The notes beneath the pieces are model-generated. The model was not told the DNA's origin. It ran no database searches and saw only the letters and a list, made by a program, of their open reading frames with translations. Shown piece after piece: positions 43,615 through 61,140 of a stretch of 64,000 bases of DNA; the first letter of the stretch is position 1; every line of letters begins with the position of its first letter. The translations under genes were made by a program, and so were the position numbers. Origin of the DNA: Solwaraspora sp. WMMA2056 (GTDB taxonomy: Bacteria; Actinomycetota; Actinomycetes; Mycobacteriales; Micromonosporaceae); assembly GCF_030345095.1 (NCBI RefSeq), contig NZ_CP128360.1, forward strand, positions 1,984,001-2,048,000, written 5' to 3'.

Positions 43615-44985
43615 GTGATGAAGAACTATGTCGGCGACCGTGCGATCGTGCTCGGCGGTAGCGTGACGGGCCTGTTCGCCGTCAGCCCACTGGCCGAGGC
43701 CTACCGTGAAGTGATCGTCGTTGACCGCGACGAACTGATCGGGGTGCGTGAGGTCCGTCGCGGTTCGCCGCAGGCCCGCCACATCAACGGCTTGCTGGCG
43801 CGCGGTGCGCGTGCGATGGAGGACCTGTTCCCGGAGATCACAGCGGAGATGATCAGCGCCGGCTGTCCGCAGACCGACCTGGCCGGCACGGTGCGGTGGT
43901 ACTTCAACGGCAAGCGGCTGGCGCAGCAGCGTGCCGGCCTGAGCAACGTGGCCGCCCGGCGGCCCATCATGGAGGTGCACCTGCGCGAGCGCATCCAGGC
44001 CATGCCCAACGTACGGATCATGGAACGGCACGACATCAACGGCCTGGTGTTCACCGCTGACAACTCCCGGGTGACCGGGGTCCGGGTGCAGCCCACCGGC
44101 GACGTCGACGCTCCCGAGCAGGTGATCGAGGCCGATCTGGTGGTGGACGCCACCGGCCGTGGCTCGCGGTCACCGCTGTGGCTGGAGGCGACCGGCTACG
44201 GGAGGGCGCCGGAGGAAGGCACCAAGATGGGCCTCGGTTACGCCACCCGGCACTACCGGCTGGGTGCGACCAACCGGTTCGGCACCGACCACTCGATCGT
44301 CTGCGTCGCCTCGGCCGAGTCGCCGCGCGGGGCGATCTGTACCCGTACCGACGACGGCCTGGTCGAGCTGACCACCTACGGCATCCTCGGCGATCACCCG
44401 CCGCTGGACGACGAGGGCTTCAACTCCTTCATCAAGTCGCTGGCCGCGACGGAGATCTACGACATGATCATCGACGCGGAGCCGGTCAACGACCCGGTGC
44501 TGTTCCGGTTCCCGACCACCCTGCGCCGGCGGTTCGAGAGCCTGGAGCGGTTCCCCGCCGGTCTGGTCGTGGTGGGCGACGCGGTCTGCACGCCGAATCC
44601 GGTGTTCGCGCAGGCGCAGACGCTGGCGGCCCTGCAGGCGCTGGCCATGCGTGATCGCCTGCGCGCCGGCGGGCCGATCGACTCGGTCGAGTTCATGGCG
44701 GAGGTCGGCCGGATCGTCGATCCGGCATGGCAGATGACCGAGACCATCAACCTGAGCTACCCGGGGGTCGAGGGCGAGCGGCCCCCGCAGGTGCTGATCA
44801 TGCTGGCCTACATGAAGCAGTTGCACGACGTGGCCACCCGCGACAGCAGCGTCACCGAAGCGTTCCTGCGCACGGCCAGCCTGGTGGACCCGCCGGAGTC
44901 GCTGATGCACCCCGAGCTGGTCTGGAAGGTCACGCAGAATCTGCTGGCGGCGGCCCTGCCCGCCAGGGAGGGCGCCGCGGCCTGA
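43615..44985 (+). CDS. FAD-dependent monooxygenase / epoxidase-like
   Basis: A 456-residue flavoprotein of the phenol-hydroxylase/squalene-epoxidase-like group. Rossmann motif AIVLGGSVTGLFAVSPLAEAY lies near the N-terminus, followed by VIVVDRDE, SPQARHINGLLARG and LVVDATGRGSRSP. The FAD ribityl-binding VVVGDAVCTPNPVFAQAQTLA is near residue 320 (GD motif). Such enzymes hydroxylate or epoxidise polyketide and terpenoid scaffolds. GGAGGAGG precedes GTG 43615; ATG 43618 is an alternative. First intact gene of the presumed biosynthetic cluster, convergent with the aminotransferase. Confidence 0.85.
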   Translation: MMKNYVGDRAIVLGGSVTGLFAVSPLAEAYREVIVVDRDELIGVREVRRGSPQARHINGLLARGARAMEDLFPEITAEMISAGCPQTDLAGTVRWYFNGKRLAQQRAGLSNVAARRPIMEVHLRERIQAMPNVRIMERHDINGLVFTADNSRVTGVRVQPTGDVDAPEQVIEADLVVDATGRGSRSPLWLEATGYGRAPEEGTKMGLGYATRHYRLGATNRFGTDHSIVCVASAESPRGAICTRTDDGLVELTTYGILGDHPPLDDEGFNSFIKSLAATEIYDMIIDAEPVNDPVLFRFPTTLRRRFESLERFPAGLVVVGDAVCTPNPVFAQAQTLAALQALAMRDRLRAGGPIDSVEFMAEVGRIVDPAWQMTETINLSYPGVEGERPPQVLIMLAYMKQLHDVATRDSSVTEAFLRTASLVDPPESLMHPELVWKVTQNLLAAALPAREGAAA

Positions 44986-44998
44986 CGCACGACATGCG

Positions 44999-45026
44999 CG
45001 CCGGCCGGGCCCGAGCCCGGCCGGCG
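44999..45026. terminator. 12-bp perfect hairpin after the FAD monooxygenase
   Basis: CGCCGGCCGGGC (44999-45010), loop CCGA, GCCCGGCCGGCG (45015-45026). Lies between convergent genes. Confidence 0.8.
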
Positions 45027-45032
45027 TCGCGC

Positions 45033-45066
45033 TGTGCACCGGGTCCGCATGTGCACCGGGTCCGCA
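45033..45066. repeat. 17-bp perfect tandem repeat
   Basis: TGTGCACCGGGTCCGCA occurs twice back to back (45033-45049, 45050-45066) in the convergent intergenic region. Confidence 0.92.
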
Positions 45067-45075
45067 CACGCGACA

Positions 45076-45102
45076 GCGCCGCCTCCTGTACGGAGACGGC
45101 GC
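45076..45102. terminator. Hairpin 3' of the aminotransferase
   Basis: GCGCCG-C-CTCC / GGAG-A-CGGCGC with loop TGTAC, located 15 bases past the minus-strand stop codon. It would end the aminotransferase operon. Confidence 0.7.
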
Positions 45103-45116
45103 CGTTCACCGGCGGA

Positions 45117-46238
45117 TCACCAGCCGGCGCGCACCGTCCGGACGATGTGGTCGCGGTCGGTGTCCGACAGCCACCAGCCGACCGGCAGGTACGCCACCGC
45201 CGGCATCACCGCGTCCAGGCCGGGCAGCGGCTCGCGCATCGACGCCACACAACTGTGCTCGTCGTTGCGCCGCGAGATGACGCTGGTGGCGATCCCCGCC
45301 TCGTGCATCCGGCGGGCGAACGCCGGCCGGTCCGCCACCAGCACCGGGTACACCCAGCACGACGGCGTGTGGTCGGCGAAACGCGCGGTCAGCCGCAGGC
45401 CCGGTATCCCGGCCAGCTCCCGGTCGAAGTACGCGGCGTTGCGGCGGTTGCGTTCCACCAACTCGTCGACGCGCTCGAGGTTGGCGAGCCCGATCGCGGC
45501 CGCGACATCGTTCATGTAGAACCGGTAGCCCCAGTCCGCCACGTCGTACTCGCCGGTGGCCCGATCCTCGCCGCGGTTGATGCCGAACCACCGCCGCCGC
45601 CGCCCCCGCTCGTGCAGGTCGTCGTCGGGCAGCACGAGCAGGCCGCCGCTGCCGCAGGTCAGCGGCTTGAGCGCGCCGAAGCTGAAGACGCTGAGGTGAC
45701 CGTGGTTGCCCAGCGGCCGGCCGCGGTAGCGGGCCGCCCAGGCCTGTGCGCAGTCCTCCACCACGCGGGGCCGAAAGCCCAGCCGGGCCTGCGCGTCGTC
45801 CAGTACCCGGTCGAGCCGGTCCAGGTCCATCAGGTACCCGGCCCAGTGCACCGTCATGATCGCCCGGGTCCGCGGGGTGATCTTGCGCGCCAGGTCGTCC
45901 AGGTCCATGGTCAGGGTGTCCGGGTCCACGTCCACCCACCGGATGCGCAGTCCGTTGGCCAGGATCGGCCAGTTCGTGCCCTCGAACGTCAGCGGCGTGC
46001 TGAGCACCTCACCGTCGGCGCTCCGGCCGCCGTGCTGGCGGGTCAGCAGGTCCAGCGCGAGGTGCAGAGCCGACGTCCCGCTGTTGGTGGCGAGCACCCG
46101 CGGGTTGCCGATCCGGGCCGCGAGCGTGTCCTCGAACGCGCTCACCGCCGGCCCGTGCTCCACCCGGCCGCTGCGCAGCACCTCGGCGACCCGGTCGCCC
46201 GCCTCGTCCGACATGGCGACCTTGAACAGTGGGATCAT
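45117..46238 (-). CDS. DegT/DnrJ/EryC1-type PLP aminotransferase
   Basis: A 373-residue aminotransferase of the sugar-aminotransferase family: RSGRVEHGPAVSAFED, TNSGTSALHLAL (PLP phosphate), VVEDCAQAWAARYRGRPLG (PLP-ring Asp) and SFGALKPLTCGSGG with the PLP lysine at about residue 191. The active-site lysine is present, so it should be an aminotransferase and not a dehydratase. It would aminate a keto-sugar or a similar ketone. ATG 46238 overlaps the preceding methyltransferase stop (ATGA), so the two are coupled. Confidence 0.88.
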   Translation of the reverse strand: MIPLFKVAMSDEAGDRVAEVLRSGRVEHGPAVSAFEDTLAARIGNPRVLATNSGTSALHLALDLLTRQHGGRSADGEVLSTPLTFEGTNWPILANGLRIRWVDVDPDTLTMDLDDLARKITPRTRAIMTVHWAGYLMDLDRLDRVLDDAQARLGFRPRVVEDCAQAWAARYRGRPLGNHGHLSVFSFGALKPLTCGSGGLLVLPDDDLHERGRRRRWFGINRGEDRATGEYDVADWGYRFYMNDVAAAIGLANLERVDELVERNRRNAAYFDRELAGIPGLRLTARFADHTPSCWVYPVLVADRPAFARRMHEAGIATSVISRRNDEHSCVASMREPLPGLDAVMPAVAYLPVGWWLSDTDRDHIVRTVRAGW

Positions 46239-47137
46239 GCCGCCCGGTCCGCCCGGTACAGCGCCTGCCAGAAGAAGCTCCACGGTGGCGCCCAGGCGTC
46301 GGCGGCGCAGGTCCAGCCGGGCCCGGGCCGGTACGCGGCGACGAATTTGCGGGAGTGTTCGCGCACCGCCTCGCTGTCGTGGATATCGAGCACATCCTGT
46401 AACACGCCGTTACGCAGGGCCATTCGCGCGGCCTGGTCGTCCGGTGTGCGCCCGTCGAGGCCGGGATCCGCGTACTTGCCGACTGCGTCGCGGACGTAGA
46501 ACCAGCCGCTGTGCGAGTCGGCCAGCCGCAGGTAGTCGCGTACCGTGTCGATCGGCATCTCGGCGAACGCGTTGACCCCGAGACACAGGTCGAGCCCGTC
46601 CGCGGCCAGCGCGTCGACCTCGTCCGGCGTGACGAACCGGATGCGCGCGAACCGCTGGTCGTCCAGGACCGCCCGCAGGTATTCGCGCGACAGCTCCAGC
46701 GACCGGGGAAGGTCCACGATGGCGTACGACGCCAGCTCGTGATTCGACATCATCGCGTGGCAGGTGCGCCCGTAGCCACCGCCCACCTCCAGCACCCGTA
46801 AGCCGTCCAGTGGCATCCCGGCGGCGAGGAACTCCAGCTCGAGCACCGACAGCAGTGAGTCCATGCACACCTGCTCGCCGTCGTAGATCACCGAGATCGG
46901 GTCGCCGACATCACGGTTGCGGATTCGGCGCAGGCGCTCCCGGTTCTCCGGGGAGAGCCCGGCGGCCAGGTGGTAGATCAGCGCCTTGAGATAACGGACC
47001 CCGTTGGGCCGCGGATCCCAGTAGCCCAGCTTGTAGTTGACCGTCCGAGACTTGAACCCGGGCAGGTTCGTGGCCGCGTCCGCGGTGATCGTCTCGTCGT
47101 AGTGTTCGCGCAATGAACTGGGGACATACTTGGCCAT
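46235..47137 (-). CDS. SAM-dependent methyltransferase (putative sugar O-methyltransferase type)
   Basis: A 300-residue protein with a SAM-binding motif LRVLEVGGGYGRTCHAMM near residue 120, SYAIVDLPRSLELSREYL (acidic loop) and LGVNAFAEMPIDTVRDYL. Overall pattern resembles the family annotated as putative sugar O-methyltransferases in antibiotic clusters. ATG 47137 follows GAGGAGC. Translationally coupled to the aminotransferase, so both probably act on one amino-sugar or related intermediate. Confidence 0.75.
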   Translation of the reverse strand: MAKYVPSSLREHYDETITADAATNLPGFKSRTVNYKLGYWDPRPNGVRYLKALIYHLAAGLSPENRERLRRIRNRDVGDPISVIYDGEQVCMDSLLSVLELEFLAAGMPLDGLRVLEVGGGYGRTCHAMMSNHELASYAIVDLPRSLELSREYLRAVLDDQRFARIRFVTPDEVDALAADGLDLCLGVNAFAEMPIDTVRDYLRLADSHSGWFYVRDAVGKYADPGLDGRTPDDQAARMALRNGVLQDVLDIHDSEAVREHSRKFVAAYRPGPGWTCAADAWAPPWSFFWQALYRADRAA

Positions 47138-47402
47138 CACGATGCTCCTCGCGCCGGTGGTGGTCACATTGCGAGACCACGGTCCCATCGGGCGATGACG
47201 GCGGGCATCTTCCGTCATGCGAGGTCCACCCGTAGAGGTGTCATCCGGTGCGGAAGCGGGCAAGTCCGCTACCATCGGTGCGCCTGACCGCCGCACGGCG
47301 TAACCGAGGCGCTCGCGTGCAGACTCATACGCGCGGCGCCGCCCCGAACACGTGCCGCATCCGCGGTACGGCGAGCAACGAACGCATGGAGGTCTACGAT
47401 TC

Positions 47403-47816
47403 ATGAACTGGACGCTTGAGGTGGTGTGTGTTCCGGTCTCCGACGTGGAGCGGGCCCGCGAGTTCTACATCGACAAGCTCGGTTTCACCATGGACTACGA
47501 CACCGAGGCGGGGGAGGCCCGGGTGATCCAGGCGACCCCGCCGGGCTCCGGGTGCTCCATCTGCTTCGGCAAGAACGTCGTTGACATGAAGCCGGGCTCA
47601 CTCAAGGGCCTGCAGCTCGTCGTGCGTGACCTGAAGGCGGCCCGCGAGGAACTCGCCGGCCGTGGCCTGGACGTCGGCGAGATCCAGGTCTTCGACCGGT
47701 CCGGCAACCAACGCCCCTACAAGGACGGCGACGTGCTGGACAAGATGGGTTTCGTCTACTTCACCGACCCGGACGGCAACGCCTGGGCGATCCAGCAGAT
47801 CGACGACCGGTCCTGA
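47403..47816 (+). CDS. VOC-superfamily (glyoxalase/bleomycin-resistance-like) protein
   Basis: A 137-residue single VOC domain: VVCVPVSDVERAREFYIDKLGF at the start, LQLVVRDLKAAREELAGRG in the middle and FVYFTDPDGNAWAIQQI with the terminal Glu/Gln metal-ligand position at the end. In antibiotic clusters such proteins act in self-resistance by binding the product, or as dioxygenase- or isomerase-like tailoring enzymes. GGAGGT precedes the ATG. Divergent from the methyltransferase and convergent with the radical SAM gene. Confidence 0.85.
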   Translation: MNWTLEVVCVPVSDVERAREFYIDKLGFTMDYDTEAGEARVIQATPPGSGCSICFGKNVVDMKPGSLKGLQLVVRDLKAAREELAGRGLDVGEIQVFDRSGNQRPYKDGDVLDKMGFVYFTDPDGNAWAIQQIDDRS

Positions 47817-47819
47817 TCC

Positions 47820-47854
47820 GACCGGGTGGCCGTGCAGCAGGCGGCCACCCGGTC
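47820..47854. terminator. 13-bp perfect bidirectional hairpin
   Basis: GACCGGGTGGCCG (47820-47832), 9-base loop, CGGCCACCCGGTC (47842-47854), exactly filling the gap between the convergent VOC and radical SAM genes. Confidence 0.85.
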
Positions 47855-47856
47855 GT

Positions 47857-49821
47857 TCAGCCCTGACCGTGCCCGGAGAACGTGCGACCCGTGGGGCCCT
47901 GCGCCAGCTCGTGGCGCGGCAACCCCATGTAGTGCACCACGATCTCGTGGTTCGTCGAGGTCACGGCGGATTCCGAGCCGACCCGGTAGTAGAGGTCCAC
48001 CGCGCAGTCCCGCGCCGACAGGTCCGGGTCCTGGCCGGCTCGCAGGCCCGCCACGATGGCCGGGATGTCGTGCCTCATCGCCACTGCACGGCGGACGTAG
48101 TAGTCGTCGCCGTGCACCGACTCGATCTCCAGTTCCGCACCGTCGGCGGCGCCGTCGCCGCGGTACACCGGGCGGGTCAGCAGGTCGTACCAGAAGACCT
48201 CGTCGAGCAGGGCGACCCGGTCGGCGCTCAGCAGCGGGCGCACGGACTCCGCCCACCACCGGTTCAGCATCCGCTCGGCGTCCGGGTCGGTGAACATGAA
48301 CTTGATCGCCTCGCCCAGCCCGTCCGTGCCCAGCTTGGCCTGCGCGCCGCGCAGGAAATCCGCAGCCGGGTCGTCGGCGGCGGCGATCCATCCCTCCAGG
48401 TTGAGCAGGACCTTCGACTGTGGCAGGCCGGCCAGCCGGCGCAGCGGTGCCCAGATGTGCCGCAGCACCGCATTCTCCGCGATCACCCGGGCCCAGAACA
48501 GGAACTTCTGCATGTGCTGGTTCTCGGCGAAGGTCATCGTCTCGTGCGCCAGGATGTACTCGAAGTCGTCGTGGTCGCCTCGGACGGACTTGATGCCGAA
48601 CTGCTCTTTCTTCTCGAAGTAGTCGGTGTTCGGCAGCAGCAGCATCGGGTAGACGGCGATGCGGGACATGTGTTCGGCCAGCCGGTCGTAGCCATCCATG
48701 AAGGACTCGATGGTCTCGCCCGGCGCACCCCAGATCAGCTCGGCGTAGCAGTCGAGGCCCTCGCCGGCCAGCCAGGTCGTCAGGTCCTCCCAGTCGTTGA
48801 CCTTCATGTTGCGGCGGCGCATCTTGACCAGCGCGCTGTCGTTGAGGGTCTGCAGGGCCAGGGTGAATGAGCTCTTCATCCCGGCCTCCTTCATCAGCCG
48901 TACGATGCGGTAGAAGGTCTTGGACTTGTTCTTCGCCCACGAGGTCTCCAGCGCTCGCGGGAACCCGTACTTCTCCCGGGTCTGGATCAGCGCTTCGACG
49001 AAGTCGTAGTCGGCGGGCAGCATCCCGAAGTTGGCGTCGCAGGCCACGACCGTGTGCACGCCGAGCTTGCCGAACACCTCCAGCTCCGCGCGGAGCCGGT
49101 CCATCGGGAACGCCCGCACCTTCTGCCCAGTGGCGCCGCCCCAATAGCAGAACGAGCACTTGTACGGACAGCCCCGGTTGGTCTCCATCAGCGCCACGTC
49201 GTAGCGGAATCGGCCGTCCGCATCGGTCAGGTCCAGGGCGCCGGTCAGGAACGGTGACGGGATCACCTCCAGGTCGTCGATGCGGTCGCGCTCCTCGGTC
49301 GTGACGACGGTGCGGTCGGCGGACTGGTACGAGAGCCCGGGGATCGCGCCCAGGTCGTGCTTGCTGGTGCCGGCCAGATAGGCGCTCAGCAGCTCCCGGA
49401 AGGTGAGCTCACCCTCCCCGTTGATCACCACGTCGACCTCGGGGAACATCCGGAACACCCGGTTGCCCTGCGAGGTCACGTGGTTGCCGCCGAACACCAC
49501 CCATCCGTCCGGGTTGAGCTGCTTGAAGGTGGCTGCCAGCGCGCCGAACGCGTTGACGTTCCAGCCTAGGACGGAGAAGGCGATGATGTCCGGCACGCCT
49601 TCGGTGAACAGGGCGTTCGCCATGTGAGCATTGGTCACGCCGCCCCGGAAGTTGCGGATCTCGATGTCCATGCCGTTGCGGATCTCGTCGTCCGCGTTGG
49701 CGGACGCCTTCAGATATCCGGCGGCGAGTGGCATCGATTCCAACGGCATTTCCCAGACGCCCTGTTGCACCAGATGGACTGATGTCTTGGCAGGTGAGTC
49801 CGGTCCTCGATCGCTTTGCAC
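47857..49821 (-). CDS. Cobalamin-dependent radical SAM enzyme (class B type)
   Basis: A 654-residue protein. The N-terminal B12-binding fold covers residues about 15-170 (HLVQQGVWEMPLESMPLAAGYL, IIAFSVLGWNV, FGGNHVTSQG). The radical SAM core follows with the 4Fe-4S ligands CPYKCSFC (Cys218, 222, 225), and a long C-terminal region ends at residue 654. Class B enzymes methylate unactivated carbon or phosphorus or perform other radical chemistry on natural products. GTG 49821 has AAGGAGCG upstream. It is divergent from the FMN reductase gene across two operator-like dyads. Substrate unknown; the shorter C-terminal domain of known methyltransferases does not resemble this tail by eye. Confidence 0.88.
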   Translation of the reverse strand: MQSDRGPDSPAKTSVHLVQQGVWEMPLESMPLAAGYLKASANADDEIRNGMDIEIRNFRGGVTNAHMANALFTEGVPDIIAFSVLGWNVNAFGALAATFKQLNPDGWVVFGGNHVTSQGNRVFRMFPEVDVVINGEGELTFRELLSAYLAGTSKHDLGAIPGLSYQSADRTVVTTEERDRIDDLEVIPSPFLTGALDLTDADGRFRYDVALMETNRGCPYKCSFCYWGGATGQKVRAFPMDRLRAELEVFGKLGVHTVVACDANFGMLPADYDFVEALIQTREKYGFPRALETSWAKNKSKTFYRIVRLMKEAGMKSSFTLALQTLNDSALVKMRRRNMKVNDWEDLTTWLAGEGLDCYAELIWGAPGETIESFMDGYDRLAEHMSRIAVYPMLLLPNTDYFEKKEQFGIKSVRGDHDDFEYILAHETMTFAENQHMQKFLFWARVIAENAVLRHIWAPLRRLAGLPQSKVLLNLEGWIAAADDPAADFLRGAQAKLGTDGLGEAIKFMFTDPDAERMLNRWWAESVRPLLSADRVALLDEVFWYDLLTRPVYRGDGAADGAELEIESVHGDDYYVRRAVAMRHDIPAIVAGLRAGQDPDLSARDCAVDLYYRVGSESAVTSTNHEIVVHYMGLPRHELAQGPTGRTFSGHGQG

Positions 49822-49947
49822 AGGTCGCTCCTTGATCCCGCGGTGGGGGGCTCGGTGCGTCTCATGGTGGGCGGCGTGCGACGGCTGCTTCATCTTCCGC
49901 CCTGCGCTGTTCGGGCGTTGGCACACAGCGAGAGCGGCGGAACCGGC

Positions 49948-49989
49948 GATGTCAGATCGGATCTGGCGGATGTCAGACCGGGTCTGGCG
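49948..49989. promoter_or_regulatory. Two tandem 21-bp operator-like dyads
   Basis: Two direct repeats of 21 bp (49948-49968 and 49969-49989) each enclose a dyad: CAGATC-G-GATCTG in the first, CAGAC-CGG-GTCTG in the second. Twenty-one bases is two helical turns, so two dimers would bind the same face. They lie in the 205-bp divergent gap between the radical SAM and FMN reductase genes. Confidence 0.7.
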
Positions 49990-50026
49990 CCTTAACTGCG
50001 TGACCACTGAAGCGGACGGAGGGCCG

Positions 50027-50611
50027 GTGACCGACGCGTCATCACACGCGCCCCTGCGCGTCGCGGTCATCATCGGCACCACCCGCGAAAATCGGATGGG
50101 CGAGGCGATCGGCCGGTGGTTCGTCACCGAGGCGGAGAAGCGTGACGACATCGGCGTCGACCTGATCGACCTGGTGGACTTCGAGCTCCCGAACCGCTAT
50201 CCGGAACTGCCGACCGATGCCATGACGGCGTTCGCGTCCCGGGTCGGCAACGCGGACGCCTTCGTGATCGTCACCCCGGAGTACAACTACAGCTTCACCG
50301 GCTCGCTGAAGCAGGCCATCGACTGCGCCTATGACGAGTGGCACGCCAAACCGGTGGGCTTCGTGTCGTACGGCTGCCGCTCCACCGGCCGGCACGCCGT
50401 CGAGCAGTTGCGCACGGTGTTCACCTACCTGCACGCGACGACGATGCGCGACGTCGTGAGCTTCGACCTGCTGACGACCACCTTCACCGGCGACGGCGGG
50501 CTCCGCGGCGACGACGGCCAGGCCGGAACGGCGGAGGTCATGCTGAACCAACTCGCCTGGTGGGGGCTGGCGCTCCGCAAGGCGCGGGCCGCACGACCGT
50601 ACGTTTCCTAG
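50027..50611 (+). CDS. NADPH-dependent FMN reductase family protein
   Basis: A 194-residue flavodoxin-fold protein with FMN-phosphate loop VAVIIGTTRENRMGEAIGRW near residue 12, VTPEYNYSFTGSLKQAIDCA near residue 85 and FVSYGCRSTGRHAVEQLR. Such reductases supply reduced flavin to monooxygenases or act as quinone reductases. Candidate partners here are the FAD monooxygenase and the flavin monooxygenase at the right edge. GTG 50027 follows GGAGGG; GTG 50000 is an alternative. First gene of the unit with the exporter genes. Confidence 0.87.
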   Translation: MTDASSHAPLRVAVIIGTTRENRMGEAIGRWFVTEAEKRDDIGVDLIDLVDFELPNRYPELPTDAMTAFASRVGNADAFVIVTPEYNYSFTGSLKQAIDCAYDEWHAKPVGFVSYGCRSTGRHAVEQLRTVFTYLHATTMRDVVSFDLLTTTFTGDGGLRGDDGQAGTAEVMLNQLAWWGLALRKARAARPYVS

Positions 50612-50632
50612 TCCGACGAAACGAGGCAAGCA

Positions 50633-52541: not shown

Positions 52542-52563
52542 GGGTCCGCGGTTCATCCGCGGC

Positions 52564-55500
52564 TCACAACTTCCACATGGTCCGCACGGGAGGCCGGTAG
52601 GCACAGGTGAGGCCGGTGGTGACCGTGGCATCGAGGTGCACGGCCAGCGCCGGATGAAGCTGGTGCAGCTTTCGCAGGGTGCTCCGGATCCGGCCGGTCA
52701 CCGCTTTACGGGCCCGTTCCGCCTCGTCACCCAGGCGCCGGCTGCGGCCGCCCAGACCGACGGCCGTCCGCAGCTCCGACAGCAGGGCGGCCCGTTCCGC
52801 GTCGTAAGCGGCCGCGCGTTCGTCCTCGCCGCGGTCGGTGGCACGTTCGATCTCCGCGTCGAGCAGGGTGAGCCGGTCGCGGTACCGCGCCACCGCCTCG
52901 TCGTCCAGGACCGCGTCGCCGCCCATCGTCCGGGCCGCTACGACCTCCTCACCGCCCTCCGGCCGTAACAGCCGGGCGGCCGGCACCTCCTGGCCGGGGC
53001 GGCTGACCAGGTGGTAAAGGTCGCGCAGGCCCTTGGCGTCGGGCACGTGCACGGTGCGCCCCTCGTAGCCCAGCTCCCAGACCTGGCCGTCGAACCGGAA
53101 GACCCCTGGCTCCGCGTCGTCCGGCACGTCCGTGACCGGCACCGCCATCCGGTCGTCGCGGGCCTGTCGCACCAGGTGCGACATGCCGATGGCCTCGGCC
53201 TCCCGGGCCACCTCGGCGAGGAGCTCGGCCGCGCGCCGGGCGTCGCCGGGCCCGCCTCGCCCGATCAGCGCCTCCGCGAGGCCGGCACGGGCCTGCAACG
53301 ACCAGGGTCGTGAGCGGAGCCTGTCGGCGGCGTCGCGGGCCGCGGTGAACCGGGTGACCGCGTCCTCCCAGCGCCGGTCGGCGGCGTCGAGCACCGCGCA
53401 CCACAGGTCGTACGGGCCACTGATGTCACACCCGTAGAGCGAGACCGCCCATTGGCCCAGGTAGGGCAGCAACGTCGCCCGGACCTCCGCGCGCTGCTCC
53501 GAGTCGCCGACCGCCGCAGCCGCTTGCGCCCGGAAACGCAGCCACAGCGGGGCGTAGGCGCGCGGACAGTCGGCGAGGTCTCCGTGCGTGTCCAGGTACT
53601 GCCGGGCCGGGGCCGGGTCCGCGCGGTACAGAGCCGTGATGGCCGCCAGCAGTTCGGCGTCCGGGTGCCCGTCGTCGGCCAGCGTGGAGTGCAGGGCGTC
53701 CAGCTCGGCGTAGCGGCCCTGTAGCAGCCAGAGCGCCCAGCGCAGGTGGTTGGTGACGAAGGCCCAGTCGCGGTCGAGCCCCTCCTGCGACGAGGCATGA
53801 TCCAGCAGAGTCGCGGCCTCGGCGAAGCGGCCCTCGAAGATGGCGACGATGATCTGGTCGAGCAGTGTGCCGGCCACATAGCGAGGCAGGTTGCGACGCC
53901 GCGCCACGGTGAGGAACTCCCGGTGCGCGGCGAGGTAGCCGGGATCACCGTGCTCGAGCAGCGCCGTCCAGAGCAGCGATTGCGCGAAGTGCTCCATCTC
54001 CTCGTTGCCGGTGCGCCGCCCCAGCTCGGTCAACTCCAGGATCAGCGCGGCACGGTCGGCCGCCGTGCCCGGCCCCCACGTCACGTCGTGCAACGCCCAC
54101 AGGGCGAAGGCCAGCGCGTCATCGTCGTGATCGGCCCGGGCCCGGGCGACGGTCTCGCGGGCCAGCTTGTCGACCAGCAGGTCCGCGCTCCAGGGTTGGT
54201 CCGGCCGGTCGGCGTCTCGTCCGTCGGTGAGCGCCCGGTAAGCCTCGGTCAGCAGTTCCGTGCCGTCCCACTCATCCATCCGCAGGCCCCGGCTGCGGTA
54301 CAGGGTCAACGCCACCCGGGCCAGCAGCGCCGGGTCGACCAGCCGGCGGGCGATCGGCACGGCCTGCTCGAACGTCTCCCAAGCGCCGTCGTGGTCACCC
54401 GCGCGGCGCAGCCGGCTGCCCAGGCGCAGGGCGAGCGTGACGCGCCGCGTGTCGTCGTCCTCCGGCAGGCGTTCCAGCGCGCGGCGGTGGTGCCCGATCG
54501 ACTCCTCGGTGGCCATCCGCCGCTCGGCGTCCGCGGCGGCTGCCAGCAGGTGGTCCACCGCCTGTTCGGGCGCGAGGTTTGCGCCGGCCAGATAGGCGTG
54601 CCGGGCGATCTCGGCGGGCAGCACGTGGACGCTGAGCCGGCTGTCGCCGCCCACCGCGCGCACGATGCCGGCGTGCCGGCGCCGCGCATCGTCGATGTCG
54701 AGGGAATCGTAGAGCGTCTCGCGCACCAGATCCTGTGCGAACGCGAATCGGCCGCCGCCGAGCCGGCTCAGGAGCCGCGCCGCCACCGCGTGCTCCAGAA
54801 GCCGGTCCACGTGGGACACCGGCGACGGCATCGCGGTGGCCAGCACCTGCCGGTGGAACTCGTGCCCGGCGACCGCGGCGGTGCGCAGCAGCCCGGTGAC
54901 GGGCTCCGGCATGCGGGACAGCCGGTGCTGCACAGCCTCCCGTACGCCCGGTGGGATCGTCGTGATCTCGTCGCCGCCATGCAGCAGCTGCACCGTCTGC
55001 TCCACAAAGAACGGGTTTCCGCCGGTGCGCCGGTGCACCTCGGCGACCAGGTCGGGCCGGGGCGCCCGGCCGGTGTGCGCGGTCATCAGGGTCGCCACCT
55101 GCTCCAGCCCCAGGCCGGTCAGCGTGATGGTGGTCGCCTTGCTGCGCAGCACGGCCATCAGCCGGCGCAACGGATGACCGTCGGCGTCCACCTCGGTGTC
55201 GCGCAGCGTGCCGATCAGCAGGATGCGCTCCATCCAGCAGTGCCGGGTGACGAAGTCCAGCAGTTCCATCGAGGCGGGATCGGCCCAGTGCAGGTCCTCC
55301 AGCACGATCACCACCGGACGGTGCTGACAGACCGCCACCAGCGCCGACGCCACCGCGTCGTACAGCCGGAAGTCGGCCGCCACCGGCGGCGCCTCGCCGA
55401 GCAGCACCGACAGCGCGTCGCTCTCGGCTCGCGCCGACTCCCACTCGGCCGTGGTCCCGGAACGCCGCAGCCCGCGGACCACCTGGATCCAGGGCCAGAA

Positions 55501-55773
55501 GCCGGGGGCGCTGCCGGAGTCCCAGCAGGCGCCGCTGAGCACCAGCGCACCGTCCCGGCGGGCCTGCTTGACCACGCTGGACACCAGCGACGTCTTGCCG
55601 ATGCCGGCGTCCCCGGCGACCAGCGCCAGCCCACCGTGGCTGTCCAGCGTCCGCACCACCTGGGCGCGCAGCATCGCCGCGGGGTGATCGCGTCCGATCA
55701 GCTCGCCTGCCATGTCCGCCGTCACCCTCGCTCCCGGATAGTCGACTGGCCCGTCCGGCTCATAGTCCACCAC
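52564..55773 (-). CDS. Very large STAND-type ATPase regulator with novel-type C-terminal DNA-binding-like domain
   Basis: A 1069-residue protein. Its N-terminal AAA_16 module has Walker A AGDAGIGKTSLV near residue 55, Walker B VVIVLEDLHWADP near residue 150 and LLIGTLRDTEVD. The long middle is helical and TPR-like (LLAAAADAERRMATEES, many Ala-rich helices). The C-terminal 180 residues differ from LuxR or BTAD types: VFRFDGQVWELGYEGRTVHV, DAKGLRDLYHLVSRPGQEV, a charged helix, and RKAVTGRIRSTLRKLHQLHPALAVHL. It is similar to the C-terminal domain seen in other actinobacterial ATPase regulators. Probably the pathway activator. GTG 55773 with a downstream ATG at 55713 as alternative. Confidence 0.85.
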   Translation of the reverse strand: MVDYEPDGPVDYPGARVTADMAGELIGRDHPAAMLRAQVVRTLDSHGGLALVAGDAGIGKTSLVSSVVKQARRDGALVLSGACWDSGSAPGFWPWIQVVRGLRRSGTTAEWESARAESDALSVLLGEAPPVAADFRLYDAVASALVAVCQHRPVVIVLEDLHWADPASMELLDFVTRHCWMERILLIGTLRDTEVDADGHPLRRLMAVLRSKATTITLTGLGLEQVATLMTAHTGRAPRPDLVAEVHRRTGGNPFFVEQTVQLLHGGDEITTIPPGVREAVQHRLSRMPEPVTGLLRTAAVAGHEFHRQVLATAMPSPVSHVDRLLEHAVAARLLSRLGGGRFAFAQDLVRETLYDSLDIDDARRRHAGIVRAVGGDSRLSVHVLPAEIARHAYLAGANLAPEQAVDHLLAAAADAERRMATEESIGHHRRALERLPEDDDTRRVTLALRLGSRLRRAGDHDGAWETFEQAVPIARRLVDPALLARVALTLYRSRGLRMDEWDGTELLTEAYRALTDGRDADRPDQPWSADLLVDKLARETVARARADHDDDALAFALWALHDVTWGPGTAADRAALILELTELGRRTGNEEMEHFAQSLLWTALLEHGDPGYLAAHREFLTVARRRNLPRYVAGTLLDQIIVAIFEGRFAEAATLLDHASSQEGLDRDWAFVTNHLRWALWLLQGRYAELDALHSTLADDGHPDAELLAAITALYRADPAPARQYLDTHGDLADCPRAYAPLWLRFRAQAAAAVGDSEQRAEVRATLLPYLGQWAVSLYGCDISGPYDLWCAVLDAADRRWEDAVTRFTAARDAADRLRSRPWSLQARAGLAEALIGRGGPGDARRAAELLAEVAREAEAIGMSHLVRQARDDRMAVPVTDVPDDAEPGVFRFDGQVWELGYEGRTVHVPDAKGLRDLYHLVSRPGQEVPAARLLRPEGGEEVVAARTMGGDAVLDDEAVARYRDRLTLLDAEIERATDRGEDERAAAYDAERAALLSELRTAVGLGGRSRRLGDEAERARKAVTGRIRSTLRKLHQLHPALAVHLDATVTTGLTCAYRPPVRTMWKL

Positions 55774-55978
55774 TTCCGGCCCGCTGGGTCAGCCGTCAGC
55801 GCCATCCCATGCAGATGCTGCGTGGATCACCGAATGATCACCCTATGCGGTCGACTCCGCTCAGCCGGGTACCCGGCGGGACGTAGGTCACAAGGCCGCA
55901 CGGTTGGAGATGCGTCCCCGGAACGCCGAAGGCGAGGATCTTCCCTGTTGCTCCACCCGTCGACAGAGGGAGAATTGC

Positions 55979-57958
55979 ATGGACGTCCTGGTGCGGACCG
56001 GCCACCGCCGACTCCGACGAACAGCTCGTTCCTTGCTCGTGACGCTCCTGGTGCTGAGCAGCGTGCCGGTCGCCAGCGAAGCCAGCGCCGGTGGATCTGC
56101 CAGCACCACCCGTGGGGAGCGCATCCTGGGTGGCCTGTTCGAGGTCCGGAGCCTGGATGGCCGGGGCAACAACCGCAAGCACCCCGAGTGGGGCTCCACC
56201 ATGTCGCTCTACCCGCGGGTCGGGCCGGCGAACTACGTTGACGGCATCGGCGTCCCGGTCGAGGGCCCGCCGGCCCGGTACCTCAGCAACCGGGTGTTCA
56301 ACGACAACGACCAGCCGTTGTACTCCCCGCGCGACGTGTCCCAGTGGGGGTTCGTCTGGGGGCAGTTCCTGGATCACACGTACGCCCTGCGCCTGGGGCG
56401 TCGCGGCACCGGCGAGACCGCCGAGCAGATGAACATCCCGTACGACAATGCCGATCCGCTCGAGGAGTTCCCCAACGACCTTGGGGTCATCGACTTCACC
56501 CGGTCGACGCCCGAGGAGGGCACCGGGGTGACGAGCCCGCGCGAACAGATCAACCAGCACAGTTCGTTCATCGACGCGCTGGCCGTCTACGGCGCCGACC
56601 CGGCCCGGCTGGAGTGGATGCGGGAGGGCCCGGTCAACGGCAACCCCGACGACAACAGCGCCAAGCTGATGCTTCCGGGTGGCTACCTGCCCCGCCGTGA
56701 TGCGCGCGGCGACGCGGACACCGCCCCCAACATGGTCGCCGGCGGTGTGGACCCGGCGACCGTGGCGGTGGCCGGGGACCCGCGGGCCAACGAGAACCCG
56801 CCGCTGCTCGCCGTGCAGACCCTCTTCGCGCGTGAGCACAACCGGATCGTCGACCGCCTGCCGAAGCGACTGCCGGAACGCGACAAGTTCGAGATCGCCC
56901 GCGCGGTGGTCGGCGCGCAGCAGCAGTACATCACCTACAACGAGTTCCTGCCGACGCTCGGTGTCCGGCTGCCGCGCTACACCGGCTACAAGCCCGGCGT
57001 GGACGCGACGCTGACCAATGAGTTCGCCACGGTCGGCTACCGGGCGCACAGCTTCATCCGCGGCGAGTTCCAGATCGATGTGCCGAAGGGCCAGTACACC
57101 CCCGAAGAGCTCGAGCAACTGCGGGAACTCGGCGTGCAGATCACCGACCTCGGGGACCGGCTGGAACTGGTCATCCCGCTCACCGAGGAGGCGTTCTTCA
57201 ACCCGAGCATGCTGACCCAGATCCAGCTCGGGCCCATGCTGCAGAGCCTCAGCCAGCGGGCGCAGAACGCCAACGACGAGCAGATCACGAACCTGCTGCG
57301 CAGCTTCACCTTCGTGTTCCCGGTCGAGGGCAACGAAACCTGCGCCCCCGACCCGTCGCTGCCGGCGTGCATCCGGGGCGTGAACGACCTCGGCGCCGCC
57401 GACATCGCCCGCGGGCGGGACCACGGCATGCCCAGCTACAACGAACTGCGCAAGGCGTACGGGCTGGCGCCGAAGACGTCGTTCAAGGCGATCACTGGCG
57501 AACGGACCGAGCATTTCCCGCGGGACCCTGAGCTCACCAGGGGCGCGGAGATCGACGACCCGGACAGTATGGACATCATTGCGCTGTACGACAAGCACGG
57601 CCGAGAGACCACCGCAGAGGCCGACAACGCCGTCCGTGCGGAACGGCGCACCACGCTGGCCGCCCGGCTGAAGGCGATCTACGGCAGCGTCGACAACGTG
57701 GACCCGTTCATCGGGATGATCGCCGAGAAGCACCTGTCCGGCGCCGAGTTCGGCGAGACGCAGATGGCGATCTGGAAGCACCAGTTCGTCGCGCTTCGCG
57801 ACGGTGACCGCTTCTACTACCAGAACCACCGCCTGCTCGAAAAGGTCAAGCGTTGGTACGGCATCGACTACCGCGTCTCGCTCGGTGACGTAATCGCCCG
57901 CAACACCGGCACCCCGCGCCGGGAACTGCCACGCAACGTGTTCCTGACCCGTCCGTGA
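55979..57958 (+). CDS. Exported animal-type haem peroxidase
   Basis: A 659-residue protein of the An_peroxidase (myeloperoxidase/Dual-oxidase-like) superfamily. A signal peptide (RSLLVTLLVLSSVPVASEASA, about residues 18-38) directs it outside. The distal-His block WGFVWGQFLDHTYAL has His at about residue 133; REHNRI supplies the catalytic Arg. The proximal His is in TVGYRAHSFIRG at about residue 357. AADIARGRDHGMPSYNELR is the family hallmark. The family oxidises halides, tyrosines or phenols with peroxide. Preceded by GAGGGAGAA. Presence in a biosynthetic cluster is unusual; a role in extracellular coupling or halogenation of the product, or in detoxification, are options. Confidence 0.9.
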   Translation: MDVLVRTGHRRLRRTARSLLVTLLVLSSVPVASEASAGGSASTTRGERILGGLFEVRSLDGRGNNRKHPEWGSTMSLYPRVGPANYVDGIGVPVEGPPARYLSNRVFNDNDQPLYSPRDVSQWGFVWGQFLDHTYALRLGRRGTGETAEQMNIPYDNADPLEEFPNDLGVIDFTRSTPEEGTGVTSPREQINQHSSFIDALAVYGADPARLEWMREGPVNGNPDDNSAKLMLPGGYLPRRDARGDADTAPNMVAGGVDPATVAVAGDPRANENPPLLAVQTLFAREHNRIVDRLPKRLPERDKFEIARAVVGAQQQYITYNEFLPTLGVRLPRYTGYKPGVDATLTNEFATVGYRAHSFIRGEFQIDVPKGQYTPEELEQLRELGVQITDLGDRLELVIPLTEEAFFNPSMLTQIQLGPMLQSLSQRAQNANDEQITNLLRSFTFVFPVEGNETCAPDPSLPACIRGVNDLGAADIARGRDHGMPSYNELRKAYGLAPKTSFKAITGERTEHFPRDPELTRGAEIDDPDSMDIIALYDKHGRETTAEADNAVRAERRTTLAARLKAIYGSVDNVDPFIGMIAEKHLSGAEFGETQMAIWKHQFVALRDGDRFYYQNHRLLEKVKRWYGIDYRVSLGDVIARNTGTPRRELPRNVFLTRP

Positions 57959-57966
57959 CACCGTGC

Positions 57967-57993
57967 GGCCGGCGCCCTTCGCGGGCGCCGGCC
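57967..57993. terminator. 11-bp hairpin between peroxidase and methyltransferase
   Basis: GGCCGGCGCCC (57967-57977), loop TTCGC, GGGCGCCGGCC (57983-57993), starting nine bases after the peroxidase stop and 20 bases before the next start. It may attenuate or stabilise the peroxidase transcript. Confidence 0.65.
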
Positions 57994-58013
57994 CGATCCT
58001 CAAAGGAGGGCAC

Positions 58014-58751
58014 ATGCTCGCCAAGGCCATGGTCCACGTGGGCCGCCGTCTGGTGAAGGACTACCCGCCGATGGGACGGGAGTACTTCGCCGCCCGCGTC
58101 TGGAATCCGACCCGGTACGACAAGTCCAGCCTCGGCGGTCCGGAAATCCTCGACAACGAACGCCGGATCATCGACCTGATCAAGAAGTACGGCGCGGGCG
58201 CCAAGCGGACCATCGAGTTCGGCTCCGGTCCCGGCATCTACCTGGAAGCCGCGGCCCGCAACACCGACGCGGAGGAGATCGTCGGCGTCGACGTGTCGGC
58301 CGCCGCGTTGGAGTCCTCCCGCCGCCGGGTCAACGATCCCCGGCTGCGCCTGGTGAACGGGGACTTCTGGAAGGACCTGGAGCTGGGCACCGCCGACGTG
58401 GTCGTCTGCGCCAACGCCATCCACCACCTGGGGCGGGTGCGGCCGGTGATCGAGCGGCTGAAGTCGTTCGTCAACCCGGGCGGCGTGCTCATCGGCAATG
58501 TCTGGACGATGGACCACTACCACGAGTACCAGCGCAACGTGCACGGCACGTGGCGGCACCTGGGCCGTAGCGCGCTGTTCATGGCCAACGCCATCGCCCT
58601 GCGCTCGACCAGCGGGCGGTTCCACTGGGGCTCCTACCGCTCCGAGATCCTCTACGCCTCCGAGGTCGACGAGATCCTGAGTGAGTACTCCGACGAGATC
58701 CTCTACCGCTCGAACACCCGCTACATCACCGGGTTCGCCATCCGGTGCTGA
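58014..58751 (+). CDS. Class I SAM-dependent methyltransferase
   Basis: A 245-residue methyltransferase: motif I TIEFGSGPGIYLEAAAR near residue 65, acidic loop IVGVDVSAAALESSRRR, motif IV VVCANAIHHLGRVRPVIERL, and VNPGGVLIGNVWT, the typical HHL/HHxxR pattern of small-molecule O-/N-/C-methyltransferases. AAAGGAGGG precedes the ATG. Same direction as the peroxidase and glycosyltransferase genes. Confidence 0.88.
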   Translation: MLAKAMVHVGRRLVKDYPPMGREYFAARVWNPTRYDKSSLGGPEILDNERRIIDLIKKYGAGAKRTIEFGSGPGIYLEAAARNTDAEEIVGVDVSAAALESSRRRVNDPRLRLVNGDFWKDLELGTADVVVCANAIHHLGRVRPVIERLKSFVNPGGVLIGNVWTMDHYHEYQRNVHGTWRHLGRSALFMANAIALRSTSGRFHWGSYRSEILYASEVDEILSEYSDEILYRSNTRYITGFAIRC

Positions 58752-58796
58752 CTCGGCGCGTTCCGCACCGTCTGCCGACCATCCGAGGAGCAACAG

Positions 58797-60212
58797 ATGC
58801 GCGTGCTGTTCACCATGTTCCCCTCATACGTCCATCTCTACCCCCTGGCACCGGTCGCCTGGGCGTTGCAGAGCGCCGGCCACGAGGTCCGGATCGCCAC
58901 CCACGCGGGGTTCGCCGGCGCCGTAGCCTCGGTCGGCCTCACCGCCGTGGCGCTCGGGGATGCCGACGCCCCCGAGGCTCGGTTGCGCGATGACGCCAAG
59001 CAGCCTCCGGGGCCGGAGGAGGTCCTGGCGTACGCCGACGTCATGGGCTTGAACGAGCAGGAACGAGAGAACTGGATCATCTTCTACCAGTGGCTGCTCA
59101 ATCCGCTGTCCGACTACGTGCGGGTGGACCTGCCGGAGGCCGGCGAGCTGATCGAGATGGCGCGGCTGTGGAAACCGGACGTGGTGCTCTGGGATCCGCT
59201 GTTCCCGGCTGGAGCGGTGGCGGCGCGGGTCAGCGGCGCGGCGCACGGACGCTTCCTGGGTGCCGCCCTGGACTACTTCGGCTACAGCCTGGAGCGTCTG
59301 GCCGCGGCCCGGGACCGGGTCGTCGCCGCCGGGCTGCCGGAGAACCCGCTCGCCGACGTGATGCGGCCGCTGGCCGACAAGTACGGCGTCGAGGTCGACG
59401 ACGAGCTGCTTCTCGGTCAGTGGACGGTCGACCCGCTGCCCGAGGGTGTCAGCCTGGTCACCGGCACTTCGAAGGTCCCGGTCCGCTGGGTGCCCTTCGC
59501 CGGCGGCGAGACCTTCCGTGACTGGTTGTACGACGAGCCGGAACGTCCGCGCATCGCCCTGTCGCTCGGTGAGTCTGCACGGCGGTACGTGTCCGGCGAC
59601 TGGGGACGCACGCCCAAGCTCTTCGAGGCGCTGTCCGATCTCGACGTCGAGGTCGTCGCCACCTTGAACAAGTTCCAGCTCGAGGGCGTTCAGCGTGTGC
59701 CGGACAACGTCCGTGTGGTGGAGTGGGTGCCGCTGACCCAGCTCATGCCCACCTGTTCCGCGCTCATTCATCACGGCGGCAGCGGCACCACCATGAACGC
59801 CATCGTGAACCGGATTCCGCAGTTGGTGTGCGACACCGACGAGTCCTTCCTGATGCGCGCCGCCGAGGCCAGCCCCGACCCGCGGGACACCGGGACCTAC
59901 CGGGTGGGGCGCGAGTTCGGCCTCACCGACGAGACCGAGCCCGAGCAGCCCAAGGCGGGCTGGGTGATCCCGTGCCGGCATCTGATGGCGCCGCCGTGGT
60001 CGGGAATCATGAAGAAGTTCGGCGCCGGGGTCCGCCTCAATCACCAGGGGATGCCGGTCGACGAGTTGCGGAGTCACATCCAGCAGGTGATCACAAATCC
60101 GTCGTACCGCGAGGGTGCGGCGAAGCTGCGCGACGCCTGGGCGAACAGGCCCGCTCCGGCCGCCGTCGTGCCCGTGCTGGAGCGGCTCACGGCGGAGCAC
60201 CGCGCCCGCTGA
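58797..60212 (+). CDS. GT1-type (EryCIII/DesVII-like) glycosyltransferase
   Basis: A 471-residue GT-B glycosyltransferase. The N-terminal acceptor domain begins MRVLFTMFPSYVHLYPLAPVAWALQSAGHEV; the donor domain has HHGGSGTTMNAIVNRIPQLV near residue 325. These match macrolide/aromatic antibiotic glycosyltransferases. After QLVCDTDESF comes an extra segment of about 45 residues (ending GWVIPCRHLMAPPW) before the terminal GAGVRLN, absent from the usual layout. This region would border the sugar pocket. No P450-like auxiliary partner (DesVIII type) is adjacent. Confidence 0.88.
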   Translation: MRVLFTMFPSYVHLYPLAPVAWALQSAGHEVRIATHAGFAGAVASVGLTAVALGDADAPEARLRDDAKQPPGPEEVLAYADVMGLNEQERENWIIFYQWLLNPLSDYVRVDLPEAGELIEMARLWKPDVVLWDPLFPAGAVAARVSGAAHGRFLGAALDYFGYSLERLAAARDRVVAAGLPENPLADVMRPLADKYGVEVDDELLLGQWTVDPLPEGVSLVTGTSKVPVRWVPFAGGETFRDWLYDEPERPRIALSLGESARRYVSGDWGRTPKLFEALSDLDVEVVATLNKFQLEGVQRVPDNVRVVEWVPLTQLMPTCSALIHHGGSGTTMNAIVNRIPQLVCDTDESFLMRAAEASPDPRDTGTYRVGREFGLTDETEPEQPKAGWVIPCRHLMAPPWSGIMKKFGAGVRLNHQGMPVDELRSHIQQVITNPSYREGAAKLRDAWANRPAPAAVVPVLERLTAEHRAR

Positions 60213-60324
60213 TCCGGCACACAGCACTGAGGAAGGCGCACACAGCATCTAGGAAGTTGAAGGCTCACACGTGACCACGGAATGTGAGTACGTCGGGACC
60301 GGTGTCGAAGGAAGGTGTGCATTG

Positions 60325-61140
60325 ATGCGGAGAAGAATGCCGCGAACCGCTAGGGCGGTCGCGGTGACGGCGCTCGGGGCCCTGTTGATGACGAGTGCGG
60401 CGTGTGGCGGAGACGACGCCGGTGAGCCGGCCAGCAATGCCGCCGGAGCCGCTCCGGCGGCGAGTGCGGCACCCAGCGCGGCCGCGTACGAACTGCGTGA
60501 CCTGGTCACCCCGGCGGGTGCGGGTCATCCCGCCAAGGGCAAGCTGATCGAGGCCGATTTCCACGAGGCAGGGGAGAAGGGCCTGCTCGTACCGCCGGAG
60601 GGCATGACGTATTCGCCGGACTCGTGTGTCAACTTCATCGACCTGGGCGATCCGGCCCAGCTCGACGGCTGGTTGCAGTTCAACGAGGCGGCGCCGGTGG
60701 GCAAGAGCCACAACCTTGCGCACAAGGACTTCTTCGTGGGCACCGTGTTTCGGCTACCCGGCGGTGTGGATGTCGCCAAGCTGAAGGCCAAGGCCCTGAC
60801 CTGTGATGATGGCAGTGTGTCGCTGCTGGGCGACAACGGCGTCAAGATCACCGGCACGTTGACCAACACCGAGGTCGAACCGGTGAACCTGCCCGGCGCC
60901 ACCACGTTCGAGATGACCCAGCGCCTGCAGTTCGCCAAGCCGAAGGATGCCAAGGCCAAGGCTGTGCTGGAGCAGTACTACGGCGAGCTGGACGCGGACG
61001 GCGGTGTGCTTCGGGTCAAGCAGATCATCATCGTCGCCATCAGCAATGTGCTGTACGTGGTCAACATGCAGGACCGCGACGCGGCCCGGCAACTGGCGAC
61101 CGACTTCGACCGGCGGGCGATCACCGCCGGCCTCAAGTAG
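60325..61140 (+). CDS. Putative secreted lipoprotein
   Basis: A 271-residue protein starting at ATG 60325 (TTG 60322 also possible) after GAAGGAAGG. N-terminal signal MRRRMPRTARAVAVTALGALL, cited in part, ends in lipobox SAAC near residue 28, followed by an Ala/Pro-rich spacer. The mature domain (residues about 55-271) contains LEADFHEAGEKGLLVPPEGM-like and ALTCDDGSVSLLGDNG segments. No family is recognised. It is last in the peroxidase-methyltransferase-glycosyltransferase direction and could be a surface binding or immunity protein. Confidence 0.7.
   Translation: MRRRMPRTARAVAVTALGALLMTSAACGGDDAGEPASNAAGAAPAASAAPSAAAYELRDLVTPAGAGHPAKGKLIEADFHEAGEKGLLVPPEGMTYSPDSCVNFIDLGDPAQLDGWLQFNEAAPVGKSHNLAHKDFFVGTVFRLPGGVDVAKLKAKALTCDDGSVSLLGDNGVKITGTLTNTEVEPVNLPGATTFEMTQRLQFAKPKDAKAKAVLEQYYGELDADGGVLRVKQIIIVAISNVLYVVNMQDRDAARQLATDFDRRAITAGLK

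Follow-up and report, generated by a model that had tools for sequence, protein, structure and literature searches.

Enediynes are very potent DNA-cutting antibiotics, and the described systems closest to the locus reported here are the nine-membered enediynes C-1027, in whose pathway the roles of the sgc genes are known, and kedarcidin, whose ked genes include those for a beta-amino acid and a sugar. According to the available passages of one account, enediyne polyketide synthases (PKSs) are encoded in a cassette, E3/E4/E5/E/E10, and seven producers of predicted nine-membered enediynes are reported to carry an apoprotein gene (PMC5181780). Here we analysed a 64,000-nucleotide stretch of Solwaraspora sp. 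WMMA2056 (contig NZ_CP128360.1, G000:C1:1984001-2048000; hereafter the window), part of a 7.01-Mb single-contig genome that is 99.05% complete. An original prediction, made from the letters of this stretch, had proposed a set of tailoring, export and regulation genes at 43615 to 61140 with no scaffold-building enzyme, and had offered three origins for it: the edge of a larger cluster, a cluster reduced by insertion sequence (IS)-driven deletion, or a pathway whose scaffold is made elsewhere. We find that this set is the left third of a tailoring cluster of about 56 kb, which ends at about 99 kb in window numbering, and that the genome's only enediyne PKS (PKSE) lies 0.8 Mb off. We consider it probable that the two loci form one nine-membered enediyne pathway, with a core that was vertically inherited and a tailoring island that was acquired separately and is a mosaic carrying remnants of a second cluster.

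Results

By analogy with nine-membered enediynes like C-1027, the gene list covers their beta-tyrosine and amino-sugar branches. Shared with the sgc cluster are a tyrosine aminomutase, a 4-HPA-hydroxylase-type enzyme, a free-standing condensation protein, a halogenase, nucleoside diphosphate (NDP)-amino-sugar genes and the PKSE cassette, whereas here the cassette stands 0.8 Mb from the tailoring genes and there are, in addition, a KedN5-family enzyme and two Lsd18-like epoxidases. Kedarcidin shares the KedN5-family radical SAM enzyme, which scores over the curated cut-off, and its beta-amino-acid and sugar genes are also found here, but the tailoring locus holds no naphthoate PKS (no strong ketosynthase match). 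Actinospica durhamensis (L104-L108) and Saccharothrix sp. ALI-22-I (L099-L103) share, at 55-78% identity, the DegT aminotransferase, putative sugar O-methyltransferase (SugOMT), glycosyltransferase, methyltransferase, radical SAM, NDP-sugar dehydrogenase, C-methyltransferase and hydroxylase genes; they differ in that PKSE and tailoring genes lie within 100 kb and a close aminomutase is absent (best 44% and 41%). The Phytohabitans locus t1pks-1 is an enediyne PKS locus found in all four type strains studied, and the available passages of that account describe no separate tailoring locus (PMC7692728). No account of split enediyne clusters was found in the literature searched, in which coverage of subscription journals is poor. 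For the enediyne cyanosporaside (cya) of Salinispora pacifica, Lane in 2013 may have reported a cluster in two parts in one producer; if so, the split seen here has been met before, but the combination of a conserved core and exchanged tailoring islands has no precedent in cya. An enediyne pathway is of a known kind; what differs here is its two unlinked loci with probably separate histories, as read from identity and synteny.

A search of the genome with the PKSE of KJ-029 gave one full-length match (68%, residues 1-1935, at 2857373-2863144; next best 36%). Its frame is uninterrupted and lies 808 kb from the aminomutase, a separation that keeps the cassette and the tailoring genes from forming one cluster. 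The surrounding core locus (2846845-2869476) has 12 genes, each with a match in at least three and up to all seven relatives: a KS-AT-KR-DH PKSE, a 4HBT thioesterase, two DUF1702 proteins, an UnbV/FG-GAP protein, a P450, a flavin reductase, a GMC oxidoreductase, a mycothiol-dependent-type protein, a CMD-type protein, a second protein matching the same relatives' genes as the CMD-type protein, and an AraC protein. By Pfam the five-gene enediyne PKS cassette is present in it; the assignment of E3, E4 and E5 among the cassette proteins is presumptive. One of the 12 core genes (AraC, 52%) matches inside the tailoring cluster above E 1e-10 (156 genes called, 1.984-2.176 Mb), and other matches between the core region (56 genes called, 2.84-2.92 Mb) and the island reach just 28-36%. 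A scaffold made elsewhere, the third origin offered, is thus probable in view of the genome's only enediyne PKS at this distance.

To the right of the window, DNA was analysed up to 2.176 Mb, with positions above 64000 given in continued window numbering (Table 1); genes were called by a simple GC3 rule, which leaves start positions uncertain. Within about 15 kb past the window end stand an aminomutase, a C-A-T non-ribosomal peptide synthetase (NRPS) and a free-standing condensation (C) protein, so that the set is the edge of a larger cluster; each of the three suggested origins holds in part. A scaffold synthase next to position 64000 and syntenic with a known cluster, the mark of an ordinary cluster edge, is found only in part: there is an NRPS unit but no polyketide scaffold synthase. 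We rejected an ordinary edge with an adjoining polyketide scaffold: as far as 2.176 Mb the only ketosynthase match is a weak one (26 bits, a thiolase-like gene at 2.088 Mb), and the first strong match comes at 2.227 Mb.

The beta-tyrosine branch set is complete, with a tyrosine 2,3-aminomutase, an A-T NRPS, an SgcC-like hydroxylase, an SgcC5-like free C protein and a halogenase. The aminomutase has the tyrosine aminomutase 2OHY as its best solved relative (E 1e-249) and keeps the ASG triad. The best matches of the hydroxylase and the free C protein are 4OO2 and 4ZNM, which we take to be the C-1027 proteins SgcC and SgcC5. In the NRPS C domain HAVAADG stands where HHxxxDG, the motif with a known role in condensation domains, is usual, and the free C protein has HHTAADG. 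The NRPS C domain may therefore be inactive, and the contrast fits coupling by the free C protein. Reading frames are intact, with no stop codon in the eight tailoring proteins and the hydroxylase tested, and the motifs of the aminomutase, radical SAM enzyme, free C protein and halogenase are kept.

From this content a division of labour can be proposed. The tailoring island (G000:C1, about 2.0276-2.083 Mb, window 43615 onward) would make and attach the side groups: the aminomutase would convert tyrosine to beta-tyrosine, which would be loaded on the NRPS, hydroxylated on the ring by the SgcC-like enzyme, chlorinated by the halogenase and modified by O-methylation and KedN5-type C-methylation, and the SgcC5-like condensation protein would couple it. 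For the sugar part, the thymidylyltransferase, NDP-sugar dehydrogenase, C-methyltransferase, DegT aminotransferase and methyltransferases would build an NDP-amino-sugar for the glycosyltransferase to attach, and the product would leave through DrrAB. The core locus (2.8468-2.8695 Mb) would supply the warhead, presumably nine-membered, from the PKSE, thioesterase, DUF1702 pair, UnbV/FG-GAP protein, P450, flavin reductase and GMC oxidoreductase.

We sampled 399 relatives, scoring only the best two or three candidates per genome in the PKSE, aminomutase and radical SAM scans. The PKSE occurs in 105 of them and the aminomutase (identity at least 69%) in 25, of which 24 also have the PKSE; Fisher's p for the co-occurrence is 3e-14, which is no strict probability as the genomes are related. 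Most aminomutase-bearing genomes have the gene contiguous with the PKSE, though not all: the distance is 12-69 kb in 15 of the 25 and 0.8-4.8 Mb on one contig in five (our own genome G000, G015, G314, G383 and G320), the two genes lie on different contigs in four (G378, G142, G400 and G161), and one (G098) has no PKSE. In G015 (806 kb), G314 (4.8 Mb) and G378 the tailoring set stands in one place and the core in another; the loci of G378 are on two contigs (positions 977 and 1029 kb) and hence at least about 0.43 Mb apart. G314 and G378, with this same two-locus layout, belong to another family. As a separate observation, G320 (L181-L184) and G314 (L189-L192), of one genus, both have an enediyne core with similar flanks, and the beta-tyrosine tailoring set is found only in G314.

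Seven genomes of the genus were sampled, our own included (the others being G013-G018, with the G013 region left out of the fetched set). The PKSE is present in all seven, the aminomutase in two and the radical SAM gene (E 1e-50) in one. Core and flanks are syntenic in G014, G015 and G016, with medians of 77, 95 and 81% over the 12 genes, and none of the 17 tailoring genes sought (70% coverage) lies in the 100-kb stretch surrounding the core in G014 or G016. G015, the closest relative by its core, has 9 of the 17, with SnoaL (55%) beside the core and the others around a separate locus; their median is 52% vs 95% for the core, and other genomes range from 47 to 62% over differing gene subsets. 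The flank of the tRNA-Ala gene that bounds the variable region on the left is present in all six other same-genus genomes, and the adjoining content differs in all five fetched. In G015, AraC (90%), ArsR-like (91%) and GT2-like (90%) genes, the latter two called by eye, follow the tRNA-Ala within about 6 kb, and then come shared flanking genes; none of 21 tailoring genes sought was found at this site, bar distant FMO paralogues (41-44%) 60 kb on. A shared island site in G015 was rejected, there being no island genes at the tRNA-Ala and no synteny between its aminomutase locus and the site. Because of the core synteny and this tRNA-Ala content, we read the core as old in the genus and the island as unshared with the sister at that site. 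Acquisition of the island seems more economical than loss, judging from gene content and order; a loss in G015 could have left the 90% AraC gene there as a relic. In G018 and G017 the PKSE is less closely related (57%) and its site differs. Separately, in G018 (L151-L155) and G017 (L215-L216) a different PKSE core lies between the orthologues of the genes at 154752 and 156502 on the right flank of the island.

Seven relative loci of 100 kb each, taken from a radical SAM scan of named genomes that gave 60 loci, carry many of the tailoring genes, and in six the PKSE is in the same 100 kb (Actinomadura alba, KJ-029, ALI-22-I, Actinospica, Saccharothrix obliqua and Saccharomonospora piscinae). The PKSEs of these six match at 54-67% over most of their length, the five listed measuring 1932-2304 aa. 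Homologues of SnoaL, the acyl-CoA dehydrogenase, FMO, the hydroxylase and the free C protein occur in all seven loci. The block of DegT, SugOMT, glycosyltransferase, methyltransferase and radical SAM genes is whole in 2 of the 60 radical SAM loci (flanks up to 10 kb), in Actinospica durhamensis and Saccharothrix sp. ALI-22-I; in this check, proposed with the original prediction to see whether the set recurs without a scaffold gene, both species proved to have a PKSE in the same stretch. The seventh locus, in Salinispora oceanensis (L084-L088), has, besides tailoring genes, five of the 12 core genes (70% coverage), but its PKSE matches over only 3% of the length, in a 100-kb stretch with no runs of N.

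Two gene remnants that the original prediction had missed adjoin FMO1 on the left: a truncated thymidylyltransferase fused to the tail of a condensation protein, in the order of the intact pair at 76614-79123. They appear to be what is left of a second, related tailoring cluster. Lying beside IS elements, they bear out some of the suggested IS-driven deletion, but only some. A second IS66 copy lies 26 kb beyond the PKSE core locus; that recombination between the two copies caused the split is not supported, since G014-G016 already have the core on its own.

Discussion

Several findings weigh against a pathway joined across two loci. Neither a pattern search nor Pfam revealed an acyl carrier motif in the PKSE; enediyne PKSs are described, in the available passages of one account, as being without a recognised acyl carrier protein (PMC7692728). 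A crude search found no regulatory motif shared between the loci. Five same-genus genomes (G013, G014, G016, G017 and G018) have the PKSE and no such aminomutase; the PKSE therefore does something without the island, and dependence on the island is not required. G383 and G320 have the aminomutase but lack most of the other tailoring genes; in G320 the NRPS matches are weak and partial, and an aminotransferase matches partially at 48%. We rejected both as split cases. The radical SAM family occurs without a PKSE in G088, G071, G045, G091 and G265 and far from it in G084, G134 and G078, which could be further split cases; the radical SAM gene alone was thus rejected as an enediyne marker, and for this reason the aminomutase was used.

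The same cores without an island, in G014 and G016, would also fit an orphan island, the relic of a complete enediyne cluster that has lost its core half, with the resident PKSE at 2.86 Mb serving an unrelated enediyne-type product of the genus. Signs of erosion (the remnants at 42886-43544, transposase genes at 38718-41443 and 61645-62459, and the TnpB-like gene) and the mere PKSE fragment beside the Salinispora oceanensis tailoring locus point the same way. Yet the tested frames are free of stop codons and their motifs kept, the NRPS C domain motif being the exception; the core in turn lacks tailoring genes; and the same core is paired in G015 with another tailoring locus. We regard this explanation as unlikely.

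The grouping of NRPS, condensation protein and sugar genes, and the use of the aminomutase outside the gene set in G383 and G320, could instead indicate a self-sufficient locus in which the C-A-T NRPS, together with the free C protein, couples beta-tyrosine with another small acid and the product is then methylated, chlorinated and glycosylated, with no enediyne involved. Five tailoring families recur in all seven relative loci, however, six of which bear a PKSE, and there is only one NRPS module, which makes such a product quite improbable. That the split is an assembly artefact, for which the identical, same-oriented IS66 copies near both loci could speak, is scarcely credible given a single, 99.05% complete contig, two-sided synteny (the core with G014-G016, the tRNA-Ala site with G015 and G016) and the two loci of G015, also on one contig.

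For the two-locus pathway, a tentative extension, which we hold to be possible though short of likely, is modularity at the level of the genus: a stand-alone, vertically inherited warhead locus combined with exchangeable, species-specific tailoring islands at unlinked sites, in a layout that has arisen again in another family (G314, G378). Mining for a scaffold plus its neighbours splits a two-locus pathway into an 'orphan PKS' and a 'tailoring set without scaffold', as in this genome. If core and tailoring genes evolve apart, the structure of an enediyne is unreadable from its PKS neighbourhood; some 'bare' PKSE loci may then have partners at unlinked sites, and nature itself would be exchanging the side groups of a constant warhead.

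Gene content of the window

Every gene named in the original prediction is there as an open frame; coding bias is strong in most of them, and most have a clear profile match. As corrections, the domains of the FMN reductase and the permease begin downstream of the ORF starts; the model start of the KedN5-family enzyme, which has B12-binding and radical SAM domains and a CxxxCxxC motif, is near 49779. The set as such also stands, with a right end other than 61140: the SnoaL and acyl-CoA dehydrogenase genes (62605-64228) are assigned to it because they recur in the relative loci. The absence of a scaffold enzyme from the window was borne out, with no match there in ketosynthase and condensation-domain searches; no terpene synthase was seen among 20 window proteins scanned with Pfam, a scan not aimed at terpene synthases.

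Table 1 Features of the tailoring island and its left flank, in window numbering (continued above 64000)
Feature	Position	Strand	Match or remark
tRNA-Ala	37838..37912	+	left boundary of variable region
IS66 element	38718..40239	-	100% over 1522 bp to copy at 2895824-2897345, same orientation
IS3-type transposase	40559..41443	-	
Truncated glucose-1-phosphate thymidylyltransferase	42886..43302	+	residues 1-139 of 354; 61% to intact gene at 76614
Tail of free-standing condensation protein	43308..43544	+	residues 363-441 of 456; 56% to intact gene at 77753
FMO1, Lsd18/MonCI-like FAD epoxidase	43615..44985	+	paralogue of FMO2 (67661), 74% aa
DegT-family sugar aminotransferase	45117..46283	-	249 bits; 67-68% in A. 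durhamensis and ALI-22-I contiguous enediyne clusters
Putative sugar O-methyltransferase (SugOMT)	46235..47404	-	TIGR04371, 125 bits, cut-off 44; real start probably within ORF
VOC/glyoxalase-fold protein	47352..47816	+	profile match
KedN5-family methylcobalamin radical SAM C-methyltransferase	47857..50151	-	NF033712, 1017 bits, cut-off 700
NADPH-dependent FMN reductase (FMN_red)	49631..50611	+	domain from about 50057
DrrA-type ABC exporter ATPase	50633..51640	+	358 bits, cut-off 312
DrrB-type ABC-2 permease	51169..52491	+	domain from about 51766
1069-aa AAA_16/TPR regulator-like ATPase	52564..55773	-	profile match
Animal-type haem peroxidase	55904..57958	+	329 bits; N-terminus signal-peptide-like (by eye)
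Class I methyltransferase	57963..58751	+	77-78% in A. durhamensis and ALI-22-I contiguous enediyne clusters
EryCIII-like glycosyltransferase	58797..60212	+	activator-dependent GT model 369 bits, under cut-off 440
Lipoprotein-like secreted protein (by eye)	60271..61140	+	no family match
IS3-type transposase genes, second short	61645..62459	+	
SnoaL-like protein	62605..63024	-	homologue, 46-60%, in 7/7 relative loci
Acyl-CoA dehydrogenase-like gene	63050..64000, continuing to 64228	-	64-67% in 7/7 relative loci
AraC (by eye)	64348		
Antiporter (by eye)	66069		
FMO2	67661		paralogue of FMO1
Tyrosine 2,3-aminomutase	69045 (2.053 Mb)		961 bits, cut-off 501
TnpB-like gene (by eye)	71033		
C-A-T NRPS	72039-75713 (L222:4042-7713)		carrier motif GGHS present
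O-methyltransferase	75852		
Glucose-1-phosphate thymidylyltransferase	76614		intact, 354 residues; 367 bits, cut-off 320
Free-standing condensation protein	77753 (pair with thymidylyltransferase 76614-79123)		456 residues; best match 4ZNM, 382 bits
4-HPA-type hydroxylase	79189		HpaB-2 model 683 bits, under cut-off 885; best match 4OO2, 910 bits
Class III aminotransferase	81816		
Alcohol dehydrogenase	84033		
P450s, three	85113 to 90163		
NDP-sugar dehydrogenase	94289		355 bits, cut-off 190
C-methyltransferase	95784		
Halogenase	97752		best solved relative 3E1T

FMO1 has no Pfam match over cut-off and matches the PDB epoxidases Lsd18/LasC and MonCI (E 1e-44 to 1e-36); it and FMO2 are at most 57% identical to any relative compared, vs 74% mutually. 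In the contiguous enediyne clusters of Actinospica durhamensis and ALI-22-I, SugOMT is 55-58% and the glycosyltransferase 57% identical. The class I methyltransferase is a candidate amino-sugar N-methyltransferase. The joining of B12 radical SAM chemistry with an animal-type peroxidase, which the original prediction had singled out, is not a shared pairing: the peroxidase, like the VOC protein and the 1069-aa ATPase, has no homologue in any of the seven relative loci, and our guess is that these three perhaps serve self-protection or regulation. A KedN5-like radical SAM gene, 45% identical, also occurs outside Actinobacteria, in a metagenome-assembled genome of Deltaproteobacteria (L070).

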